NCBI GenBank assembly: GCA_020055655.1
Contig: JAIPUR010000003.1
Location: 2,612-66,611 of the forward strand
Length of the DNA stretch: 64,000 nucleotides
Direction: 5' to 3'
Source of the DNA: Methanosarcinaceae archaeon
GTDB lineage: Archaea > Halobacteriota > Methanosarcinia > Methanosarcinales > Methanosarcinaceae
Shown here one piece after another: positions 15,543-19,771 of this stretch. How positions within the stretch are numbered: the stretch's first letter is position 1; every line of letters begins with the position of its first letter. Under the pieces are notes generated by a model. It did no database searches and was not told where the DNA came from. It saw nothing but the letters and a program-made list of their open reading frames with translations. The position numbers and the translations under genes were made by a program.

Positions 15543-18500
15543 ATGGTATTTAAAGGAAACAAACTTAAATCGTATCTACTGATTGCTCTGCTTTTAGTTG
15601 TACCTTTTTCGGGGTGCGTGGAAGAAGGTGGACTAAGTTCTAATGTTGCAGAAGATTGCAGTGGACAGCTTGCAGATGCAGGTGATGATTTCCTGATTCT
15701 CGCACCAAAGATGCTATTCTCAGGTGGGGAAAGCTCGGTGACCATGGCAGCCTTCTCTGATGAAGAAACTGTTAGTCGCTGTGTGGAATATGTGCTTATT
15801 GATGAGGATAACAATGAAATTCCCTTGCTTACAGCCTCTACATCAGAAGCAGGTAATTCTGTAGCAGCCTTTGAGGTGCCGGATGTTGAAGAAGGCCGTT
15901 ATGTGCTCAGTGCAAGGCCACAGGGCTATGATAAGGATTTTAAGGCAACTGTTGAAGTTGTCAGGAACAATCCTCTTTTCATTGAAACCGATAAACCGAT
16001 TTACAAGCCCGGACAGACAATTCATGGCAGGATACTTTCTCTGAACAACAACCTTGTGCCTGTGGAACAGGATATCACAGTTGAGATAACCGATGCCAAG
16101 GGGATCAAAGTCTTCAAGAAGGAAATGAGTTCCAATGAATACGGCGTGGCATCCTTTGATCTTCCACTTGCAAGCGAGCTTAATCTGGGTACGTGGAAGG
16201 TAAAGGCAAGTGCCGGTGAATCAGTTTCCAATGTTGATATTCAGGTCGATAAATACGTGCTTCCGAAATTTGATGTATCTTTAGAAACTCCTCAGGAATG
16301 GTTCCTTGTATCAGATGAGATAACCGGCACGGTTTCAGCGGAATATTTCTTTGGAAAAGATGTTGATGGTCAAGTTCTCGTTGAAGCTTCCAGATATGTG
16401 GGTGAATGGGAGCAATATGCCACATTCAGCGGAAAACTTGAAGCTGGGTCAGTGGAGTTCGAACTTCCTGCAGTAGAATATGCAGCAGGTACCTATGGTG
16501 CAGGTGGGCAGGCAAGTCTCATGCTCAACGTTACAGTTACTGATACTGGCAATCATAGTGAAACAAGCAACAAGTTGCTCATCATTGCGGAATCCCCGCT
16601 TGTTATGCAGATTATTCCTGAATCCAACTACGTCAAACCGGGTATGCCACTTCAGGTACTTGTGGTGACAAAGGATCCGGGTGGCAATCCGGTTGATGCT
16701 AAGGTCGAGATAGACACAAGATCCAGAGATGAAAACTATCAGGAGAAAGAGGTTAGTGAATCCGTAAGTACGGAAAACGGTATTGCACTATTGAGTTTTG
16801 AGATTCCAGAATCCACAACTGAATTCTACATTAACGCACGTTCAGACGATGCTTATGCTAACAAGGAACTCGGAGCTGTGTATTCTCCAAGTGCAAGCTT
16901 CATCCATATCAGCCAGACCAGCGATGGAGTTGCTGAAGTCGGGGAGAGCATCAGCTTCAGAGTTTATTCCACCAACAAAGGCACTGTGTTCTACGATGTT
17001 TTTGCAAATGGCAGGACTGTGTATTCCGCAACCAGTGATGAACAGGATATCAATATTCCTGTAAGCCCCCAGATGAGTCCGCAGGCAAAGGTTGTTGCTT
17101 ACATGATAAATCCCAACAGCGAGGTATCAGTGGATGTAATGCCCTTTGATGTTCAGTTCTCCACACAGGTCGACCTTTCCAGTTCATTTGACAGCGAGTC
17201 CGTAGAACCGGGTGCTGATGTCACCGTTAATTTTGATGCAGGCAGCAGATCCATGATCGGCTTTTCCATAGTTGATGAATCAGTTTATGCTCTCAGTGAA
17301 GGAAGGCTAAATCTCAAACAGATATTTGATGAACTTGAATTGCGTTTCCAGGAGCCTCAGGCAGAATCACATCCAGTATGGCATCACGAAGGCGCATACG
17401 ACCTGCTTGATAGCACTGGTATGGTAGTCATGGCATCACAAGGTCTTCAAGTGCCAAAGTCAGAATCTGATTCTACTGATTTTAAGGTAAATGGTTGGGA
17501 GGTGGCAGTCGAAGATGAGATGATGCTAGACGCTGATATGCCTGAAATGGAAATTCCAGTTGAGGAGGTTGTAGAGGAAGAAGCAATGGATGGAGACACT
17601 GGGGAGCTTGCAGAGGTGCAGCGTGTGCGCCAGTTCTTCCCTGAAACATGGGTATGGATGCCGGAACTTCTCACGGATGCTAATGGACTTGCAAGCCTTG
17701 AGCTGAATGCTCCTGACAGCATCACTACGTGGAGATTGCATGCTGTATCATCAGGACCAGATGGTATTGGCATTTCCAAATCACAGCTTACGGTTTTCCA
17801 GGACTTTTTTGTTGATCCTGATCTACCTTATGCAGTGACCAGGGGTGAAGTGTTCCCGGTACAGGTGCAGGTATACAATTATCTGGACAGGCAGCAGGAT
17901 GTGAAACTCACGCTTTCAGGCGCGGACTGGTTCGATATCATCGGTGAAGATGTACAGACCGTGAGCGTGGATGCAAATAGTGTTGGCCATGCTACATTCA
18001 TTATCAGTCCCACAGAAGTTGGTAAACAGATCGTTGAGATCACAGGACAGACCACTGAGAAAGCAGATGCAGTTCGAAAGGATATGATAGTTGAAGCTGA
18101 AGGTGCAACCCGTGAACTGGTGGACAACGGTATTTTGAAGAATGCTACAGTTGTACTGGACCCAACTCTTCCGGAGGGTATAGTTCCGGATTCCGGAAAG
18201 GTGCTCGTGAGTTTCACTCCAAGTATTGTGGCTCAAACCATCAATGGTGTTGATGATCTGCTGGGTATGCCATACGGCTGCGGTGAGCAGAACATGATGC
18301 TCTTCTCAACTGATGTTGAGGTGCTGAGATACCTTGAAGCAACAGGACAGGATGATCCAGAGCTGAAGGCCAAAGCCGAGATGTTCATCACCACTGGATA
18401 CCAGCGTGAACTTACATACATGCGCAGTGATGGCTCCTTCTCAGCATTCGGAGAAAGCGATCCTGAAGGCAGCCTCTGGCTAAGTGCTTTTGTGCTCTCC

Positions 18501-19742
18501 CAGTTCAGTGTAGCAAGGGACCTGACAACAATTGACGAGGATATTCTTGCAGATACTGCAAGCTGGATAGCATCTCATCAGCAGGAAGATGGCTCATGGG
18601 AGTCTGTGGGCTTTGTTATCCATCAGGACATGGTTGGGGGTGTGAATGGTGCTTATGCACTTACAGCATACGTTACTCTGGCATTGGATGAATATGGTTA
18701 TGCAAGTCCTGTTGTCATGGCTGATGCCCAGAAATATCTTGAGCACAATCTTGCAGACCAGGATGATCCCTATGCTCTGGCAATTGGCACTCTGGCATTG
18801 CAGAAACTTGATAGCCCATTCGCGGATGAAGGCATCAATGAACTGCTGGCAATATCAAAGCAGGATGATGATGGCACTTATTGGGGATACGGTGACGGGG
18901 CTGTCACTCTGCCATACGAGCATGGTGGATACAACTACATTGCTCCATCCAGCAAGAATGTGGAAACCACTGCATATGCAACCCTTGCACTGATCGAGGC
19001 AAAGAATCCAATAGCCAGCTCATCATTGAAATGGATATCCGCACAACGCAATTCCAATGGAGGCTTTTCCAGTACTCAGGATACAGTCATGGCATTTCGG
19101 GCACTGATGAGTGCAGCAGCAAGTGCTGGTCGGGATATTGATGCTAATGTAAAAGTGATAGCTGATGGAACTGAGCTCAGGTCAGTTGAAGTAAATCCAC
19201 AGAACTTTGATGTGGTGCAGATAATCGAGATTCCAAAAGGCAGTTCAGAAGTTAAGCTTGAAATGCAAGGCTCAGGGGATTTGAAATATCAGCTTCTCAG
19301 GCGTTTCAATGTGATACTTCCAGAGATCATCAAGCAAAATGAGATCGAGCTTGACGTGGACTACGATTCCACCGATGTTGCTGTGAATGATATTGTCACT
19401 GTGGGTACTCGTGTGAAGTACAACGGTATCCGTGGAATTGATGGCAGTTCAACTTCCAGTGGAATGATGATAGTGGACATCGCAGTGCCCACAGGATTCA
19501 CGCCTGTCTCATCAAGCCTTGAAGATCTCAAGGAAGATGCTGTGATAACCCGCTACGAGATCGCAGGTCGCAAGATCATCCTCTACATTGATGAGATGCA
19601 GGCAGGAGAGGAGATCAACTTTGAGATCCAGGTTAAGGCATTGTTCCCTGTAAGGGCTATAGTGTCCGAGAGCAAGGCTTACTCTTACTACAACCCTGAG
19701 CTTGTGGCTGAGAGTAAGGGAATGGATGTGACTGTGGTTTGA
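15543..19742 (+). CDS. Alpha-2-macroglobulin/complement-like thioester lipoprotein
   Basis: A very large exported protein, 1399 residues from the ATG at 15543 (15522 is an alternative). A signal helix ends in FSGC at about 22-25, suggesting lipid anchoring. It carries the metazoan-style domain marks in order: TDKPIYKPGQ (about 149), KYVLPKFDV (about 236), an acidic protease-bait-like stretch (about 640-697), FFPETWVWMPE (about 698), the thioester GCGEQ (912-916), VIHQDMVGG with H1027 at the place of the complement C3 catalytic histidine, and a receptor-binding-like domain (about 1270-1399). The expected role is trapping foreign proteases or covalently tagging targets. It stands alone with its own terminator. 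No PBP1C partner is nearby, unlike many bacterial homologues. Confidence 0.9.
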   Translation: MVFKGNKLKSYLLIALLLVVPFSGCVEEGGLSSNVAEDCSGQLADAGDDFLILAPKMLFSGGESSVTMAAFSDEETVSRCVEYVLIDEDNNEIPLLTASTSEAGNSVAAFEVPDVEEGRYVLSARPQGYDKDFKATVEVVRNNPLFIETDKPIYKPGQTIHGRILSLNNNLVPVEQDITVEITDAKGIKVFKKEMSSNEYGVASFDLPLASELNLGTWKVKASAGESVSNVDIQVDKYVLPKFDVSLETPQEWFLVSDEITGTVSAEYFFGKDVDGQVLVEASRYVGEWEQYATFSGKLEAGSVEFELPAVEYAAGTYGAGGQASLMLNVTVTDTGNHSETSNKLLIIAESPLVMQIIPESNYVKPGMPLQVLVVTKDPGGNPVDAKVEIDTRSRDENYQEKEVSESVSTENGIALLSFEIPESTTEFYINARSDDAYANKELGAVYSPSASFIHISQTSDGVAEVGESISFRVYSTNKGTVFYDVFANGRTVYSATSDEQDINIPVSPQMSPQAKVVAYMINPNSEVSVDVMPFDVQFSTQVDLSSSFDSESVEPGADVTVNFDAGSRSMIGFSIVDESVYALSEGRLNLKQIFDELELRFQEPQAESHPVWHHEGAYDLLDSTGMVVMASQGLQVPKSESDSTDFKVNGWEVAVEDEMMLDADMPEMEIPVEEVVEEEAMDGDTGELAEVQRVRQFFPETWVWMPELLTDANGLASLELNAPDSITTWRLHAVSSGPDGIGISKSQLTVFQDFFVDPDLPYAVTRGEVFPVQVQVYNYLDRQQDVKLTLSGADWFDIIGEDVQTVSVDANSVGHATFIISPTEVGKQIVEITGQTTEKADAVRKDMIVEAEGATRELVDNGILKNATVVLDPTLPEGIVPDSGKVLVSFTPSIVAQTINGVDDLLGMPYGCGEQNMMLFSTDVEVLRYLEATGQDDPELKAKAEMFITTGYQRELTYMRSDGSFSAFGESDPEGSLWLSAFVLSQFSVARDLTTIDEDILADTASWIASHQQEDGSWESVGFVIHQDMVGGVNGAYALTAYVTLALDEYGYASPVVMADAQKYLEHNLADQDDPYALAIGTLALQKLDSPFADEGINELLAISKQDDDGTYWGYGDGAVTLPYEHGGYNYIAPSSKNVETTAYATLALIEAKNPIASSSLKWISAQRNSNGGFSSTQDTVMAFRALMSAAASAGRDIDANVKVIADGTELRSVEVNPQNFDVVQIIEIPKGSSEVKLEMQGSGDLKYQLLRRFNVILPEIIKQNEIELDVDYDSTDVAVNDIVTVGTRVKYNGIRGIDGSSTSSGMMIVDIAVPTGFTPVSSSLEDLKEDAVITRYEIAGRKIILYIDEMQAGEEINFEIQVKALFPVRAIVSESKAYSYYNPELVAESKGMDVTVV

Positions 19743-19744
19743 GA

Positions 19745-19771
19745 AGGGAATGTATTTCCCTCTTTTTCTTT
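19745..19771 (+). terminator. Terminator after the macroglobulin gene
   Basis: AGGGAA (19745-19750), loop TGTAT, TTCCCT (19756-19761) form a 6-bp stem. It starts 3 nt past the stop and is followed by a T/C-rich run. Confidence 0.6.

Follow-up and report, generated by a model that had tools for sequence, protein, structure and literature searches.

Does a methanogen encode a true relative of the animal alpha-2-macroglobulin (A2M) and complement proteins, or is its large thioester protein an ordinary A2M of bacterial type? The question is raised by one gene in a 64,000-nucleotide stretch of DNA, hereafter the window, from a Methanosarcinaceae archaeon (GenBank assembly GCA_020055655.1, contig JAIPUR010000003.1, positions 2,612 to 66,611 of the forward strand). 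The gene (15543..19742; this and all window features below lie on the + strand) encodes 1399 amino acids from ATG 15543, and it is a single intact open reading frame (ORF) that is open from TTG 15516, has further starts at ATG 15522 and ATG 15543, and ends with a TGA stop at 19742. Residues are numbered here from TTG 15516; subtracting 9 gives the numbering from ATG 15543. A sequence-only reading had likened the protein to animal A2M and complement C3, and its residues C913, Q916 and H1027, which are exact from ATG 15543, correspond to C922, Q925 and H1036. The motifs TDKPIYKPGQ, KYVLPKFDV, FFPETWVW, GCGEQ and VIHQDMVGG were all found at the places it gave. Here, we find that the protein belongs to the animal lineage of A2M, CD109 and the thioester-containing proteins (TEPs) and not to the bacterial YfhM type, as supported by its domains, bit scores, thioester-associated histidine and lack of a PBP1C partner.

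The Pfam search found seven domains in the animal order, all above the curated cut-offs, so that the motif matches are far beyond chance. These are MG2 with TDKPIYKPGQ (15975..16247; PF01835, 1.3e-22), MG3 with KYVLPKFDV (16251..16424; PF17791, 2.1e-13), MG4 (16623..16853; PF17789, 3.8e-10), the A2M_BRD match of the MG5-MG6 part (16905..17294; PF07703, 1e-21), the A2M family domain of the MG7 region after FFPETWVW (17646..17915; PF00207, 3.6e-29), TED_complement, the thioester domain (TED; 18225..19109; PF07678, 4e-75), and A2M_recep, the MG8 or receptor-binding-like domain (19455..19709; PF07677, 1.2e-16). Ahead of them, the MG1 region (residues 57-150, 15684..15965) is a beta sandwich in the predicted structure, aligned to C5, CD109 and A2M from model residue 12 onward. 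The GCGEQ thioester motif with Cys922 and Gln925 lies at 18276..18290. At the N-terminus, a putative lipoprotein signal peptide (15543..15617) carries the lipobox F-S-G-C with Cys34, which was recognized by pattern only; the SGC is retained in the Methanolobus orthologues. NCBIfam held no model matching the protein. As far as can be read from sequence, the bait-like insert, C3-type histidine and receptor-binding (MG8) domain proposed by the sequence-only reading were all borne out, and the protein carries an N-terminal lipobox.

When the protein was searched with phmmer against all PDB sequences, the top matches were human A2M (3e-115), CD109 (2e-113) and A2ML1, followed by C4, TEP1 and C3. 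For the A2M-TED pieces, CD109 scored 287 bits, A2M 249 and A2ML1 246, whereas E. coli YfhM scored 34.5 with the same query. As a control, the Pfam search of YfhM found bMG1, bMG2, bMG3, bMG5, bMG6 and bMG10, and bMG domains were also found in a YfhM-type protein next to a planctomycete relative of the window gene (L046); none of these six domains was found in the window protein. The E. coli YfhM gene adjoins pbpC, whereas the neighbors of the window gene are wrbA and mutS, and no Transgly domain and no PBP1C were found anywhere in the window genome. The YfhM-type assignment was therefore rejected on the absence of bMG domains and on bit scores far below those of the animal A2M-group proteins. 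The protein does not fit MagD or the type II bacterial A2Ms either, which are without CxEQ and belong to a six-gene mag operon, as GCGEQ is present and no such operon was seen among the neighbors examined. The C3 assignment was also rejected: the ANA and C345C domains were not found by Pfam, and only 10 residues are left after MG8. This makes the protein A2M/CD109-like, so that the C3-like label of the sequence-only reading did not hold.

The bacterial alternative has nevertheless been put forward for what is very probably the same gene. Archaeal A2M homologues with CxEQ were described by Makarova et al. 2021 (PMC8416519), who included Methanolobus psychrophilus WP_015053894.1, regarded it as a close relative of bacterial A2M and considered a gain from bacteria probable. 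We infer that the window gene is very probably an orthologue of WP_015053894.1, which means that the protein itself was already on record. An origin of this kind, as an ordinary YfhM-type A2M gained from bacteria, could draw on the relatives found in Planctomycetota and one Hydrogenedentota genome (L044-L048), which are 45-47% identical over near full length and make a bacterial donor or recipient possible. However, the bit scores and missing bMG domains, together with a tree test given below, leave this explanation very improbable, and our results suggest that the bacterial-type placement in PMC8416519 is wrong and that the label needs correction.

To place the family, maximum-likelihood trees were built in which the animal sequences were taken from PDB alignments; six were usable, some of them long-branched (TEP1, C3, C4). 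The trees unite the window family, the planctomycete/hydrogenedentote family, more distant genes from two other Halobacteriota families (f9/f10) and the animals in one group, which stands apart from the planctomycete GCFEQ-type and the archaeal YfhM-type genes (with bootstrapping, support of 81-86 / 98). The branch uniting the animal-type prokaryotic genes with the animals is present in all trees, while the root and inner order are unsettled, and a placement of the window protein among YfhM-type proteins, which the sequence-only reading had named as decisive against it, was not recovered. In the best tree, the animals form one clade (96/94) beside three f9/f10 genes, L055, L078 and L137 (98/99), within the prokaryotic spread. 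By the approximately unbiased (AU) test, union with the YfhM-type archaeal rows was weakly rejected (p-AU 0.027), as was a single archaeal clade (p 0.036), and a sister relationship of the Methanosarcinales family to the animals alone was rejected (p 0.0002). A single prokaryotic clade stands (p 0.453), and so does the nesting of the f9/f10 genes inside the animals (p 0.461), so that descent in either direction would fit.

These tests also bear on a recent transfer from an animal into the methanogen. The high similarity to animal TEPs and the standing nested topology of the f9/f10 genes would fit such a transfer. In contrast, the Methanosarcinales family is old (57-79% identity across families of the order) and has planctomycete sisters, and the AU test that rejected its direct union with the animals alone rejects a window gene taken straight from an animal. 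Transfer from an animal is thus already unlikely for the window gene, and we give it very little weight. Taken together, the sequence comparisons make the kinship of the prokaryotic animal-type genes with the animal proteins clear, and either direction of descent would fit the trees. Tentatively, and as one possibility, Halobacteriota and Planctomycetota may have kept the kind of animal-type thioester protein from which the A2M/complement family of animals arose; bait-triggered covalent capture would then have been complete in prokaryotes before animals took it up for immunity.

AlphaFold models of the two halves of the protein, built from alignments of the window protein and its relatives, resemble native, unactivated A2M, CD109 and TEP1. 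The N-terminal half (predicted local distance difference test score, pLDDT, 80.7) aligns to C5 (Z 28.4), CD109 (Z 27.6) and A2M (Z 26.1), and the C-terminal half (pLDDT 76.8) matches TEP1 (Z 42.9), A2ML1 (Z 42.4) and native A2M (Z 41.5). The TED is helical in the model and aligns with Z 31-34 to C3d, C4dg and the C5 TED. With Foldseek, the TM score was 0.76 to native CD109 and A2M compared to 0.37 to activated CD109, and the model is therefore native-like with the TED in its usual place. No bacterial A2M was among the fold-search matches listed, and this was not used as evidence. A normal thioester pocket would be consistent with both the sequence alignment and the native-like model.

Conservation separates the putative active site from the bait-like stretch. 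C922, Q925 and H1036 are invariant in 33/33 aligned full-length orthologues. Between the signal and the C-terminus, the most variable part of these sequences is residues 641-706 (17436..17633), an acidic and disordered stretch with a pLDDT of about 30 in the model of the N-terminal half. Within-genus conservation of this stretch is 0.56, compared to 0.84-0.92 in most domains and 0.91-0.92 in MG2, MG3, MG5 and the TED, and its flanks GRLN..EPQ and VRQFFPETW are almost fixed. A variable stretch between near-fixed flanks matches the expected look of a bait region; no cysteine was found in residues 600-706. His1036 (18621..18623) lies 111 residues after Q925, at the position of the catalytic histidine of C3, aligned with the C3 VIH. 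It is invariant in all animal-type prokaryotic rows; the residue at this position is histidine in C3, CD109, A2ML1 and TEP1, asparagine in A2M and aspartate in C4A. The surrounding H-x-[DE]-[ML]-x-GG is found in every animal-type prokaryotic row and in varied forms in CD109, C3, A2ML1 and TEP1, and in the GCFEQ and YfhM-type rows it is changed or absent.

We propose, with a probability of about 0.6, that the protein represents the animal-type A2M/TEP lineage in archaea and acts as a membrane-anchored, bait-triggered, single-use covalent protease trap. The secreted protein would be tethered by its N-terminal lipid between the membrane and the S-layer, where a foreign or stray protease would cut the bait in its disordered stretch (residues 641-706). 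Collapse of the MG ring would follow, the thioester formed by Cys922 and Gln925 in the TED, until then shielded against MG8, would become exposed, and with His1036 as catalyst it would acylate the attacker or a nearby surface. A histidine at the thioester gives C3 and C4B a preference for hydroxyl targets, and by this chemistry His1036 would favor hydroxyl targets here. The role may be comparable to that of E. coli YfhM (ECAM) in the periplasm (for the ECAM mechanism, see PMC3328433 and PMC5764988).

Several observations weigh against a protease trap. The bait is poor in lysine and arginine, which may count against trypsin-like proteases as the target; PADLOC gave no match, that is, no anti-phage system was called; no protease or immunity gene linked to the window gene was seen; and His1036 also marks opsonin-like TEPs. 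The last point leads to complement-like tagging, in which, after a cut by an own or partner protease, the thioester would bond to sugars or proteins of a virus, vesicle or rival cell as in TEP1 or C3, with no trapping. Such tagging would account for the C3/TEP1-type histidine in place of the asparagine of human A2M and for a C-terminal half that fits TEP1 no worse than A2ML1. However, neither the ANA and C345C domains nor a linked convertase-like protease was found, a lipid anchor would keep the protein at its own cell, and the hypervariability of the bait fits a target range of proteases that is open-ended. We regard tagging as unlikely.

The distribution of the gene speaks to a third function. 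The closest named relatives are nearly all from Methanolobus (75-78% identity in the best segment), and on this basis the window was assigned to Methanolobus or its immediate vicinity. The gene is present in 24/26 other genomes of the genus at 75-79% identity. In other families of the order its identity is about 54-59%, and within the genomes sampled several sister genera and two families of the order lack it. In Methanolobus the locus order thermosome, ECF transporter, arsP, modE, wrbA, A2M, mutS, mutL is largely retained, and the A2M gene is still beside mutS and mutL in one further genus of the family. The gene is maintained vertically in Methanolobus. Near-universal presence at one fixed place in the chromosome, which is atypical of defence genes, together with CD109 as the best animal match in the A2M-TED region, might point to a CD109-type surface housekeeping or adhesion/signaling protein with protease trapping as a secondary role. 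The fast change of the bait between conserved flanks argues against this, and we consider it improbable compared with the protease trap.

Close gene neighbors were rejected as functional partners, since wrbA and mutS/mutL belong to the conserved chromosomal backbone in Methanolobus, and no common partner gene was found beside the planctomycete and other relatives examined. A mobile or viral origin was rejected as well: there was no match in phages and none in viral contigs, and plasmids gave only distant matches (22-32% identical). Directly past the stop, a terminator-like hairpin with a T-rich tail (19745..19761) is a pattern match only, of a kind found 3 times compared to 3.5 expected by chance. 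Broken-looking copies were seen in two genomes of the genus, L006/L041 (G012) and L028 (G015), with an in-frame TAA in one and, in the other, a reading frame that splits near residue 1081.

Outside the order, the Planctomycetota/Hydrogenedentota animal-type A2Ms (L044-L048, L085-L090) have the same motifs as the window protein, with a shorter bait in L044-L046. In a Sedimentisphaerales genome, a YfhM-type A2M with bMG domains, a PBP1C-like transglycosylase/transpeptidase and an animal-type A2M follow in direct succession (L046:304-12113); this three-gene row hints at a role in envelope protection, and the genome holds both A2M lineages side by side. Since Planctomycetota and Hydrogenedentota have close relatives, among them this one beside a PBP1C-like gene, nothing suggests that the protein is peculiar to archaea. 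The more distant genes of the two other Halobacteriota families are L055/L130 (G179), L078/L131 (G195) and L137 (G699), and on its 72 kb contig L078 is surrounded by prokaryotic housekeeping genes of the ordinary kind. A second, distant archaeal A2M type was seen in Halobacteriota (L080-L084), with reading frames of 1700-1990 amino acids, only about 40-60 bits to the animal-type profile, and GCPEQ in L080 and L084.

In the literature searched, no description of this animal-type prokaryotic lineage was found. What this analysis adds is the placement with the animal type, the recognition of a C3-type histidine and a hypervariable bait, the relatives in planctomycetes and in further archaea, and models in a native-like state. 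A standing hypothesis, put forward by Budd et al. 2004 as recounted in PMC13069473, holds that bacteria acquired their A2Ms from animals by gene transfer. The origin of the animal A2M/complement family is an open question that can now be tested with this prokaryotic family, which is widespread, animal-like in every domain and far nearer to animals than YfhM, and which provides the missing comparison and can be produced in the laboratory. If the protein is a protease trap, archaea would have a surface protease-capture system.

A separate observation concerns the planctomycete GCFEQ-type A2Ms. In many of these genes, one in-frame TGA stands precisely where the thioester cysteine would be encoded (G-U-[FM]-EQ), as in the Planctomycetota loci L091, L094, L096, L097, L100, L102, L103, L105, L107 and L108, and cysteine versions exist in relatives. 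A strong SelA match was found in 12/13 UGA-bearing genomes and a high-scoring tRNA-Sec in most, and a hairpin resembling a selenocysteine insertion sequence (SECIS) follows the UGA at the same distance in several, strongly in one. Together, these features suggest that selenocysteine replaces the thioester cysteine in such GCFEQ-type A2Ms, where it may possibly form a selenoester. The literature searched gave no description of selenocysteine at the A2M thioester position.

Compared with known systems, the window protein shares with E. coli YfhM, a type I bacterial A2M, the lipobox, the bait, a CxEQ thioester and an inferred protease-trap mechanism, and differs in the low bit score, the bMG domains and the pbpC neighbor of YfhM. 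With complement C3, C4 and C5 it has in common the MG ring and the TED, with the histidine as in C3 (VIHQ[DE]M), but it is without ANA, C345C and bait cysteines and is 30-31% identical to C3 and C4. Anopheles TEP1 has the same layout and the histidine, and in structure it is the closest fit to the C-terminal model, level with A2ML1 and C5; it is, however, soluble and 29% identical. Human CD109, A2M and A2ML1 match the window protein in the MG1-MG8 order with CUB, TED, bait, GCGEQ and native fold, at about 34% identity over about 546 alignment columns. The archaeal protein differs from this group in its N-terminal lipobox in place of a glycosylphosphatidylinositol anchor or free secretion, in its largely acidic bait, and in the C3-type histidine where human A2M has asparagine.

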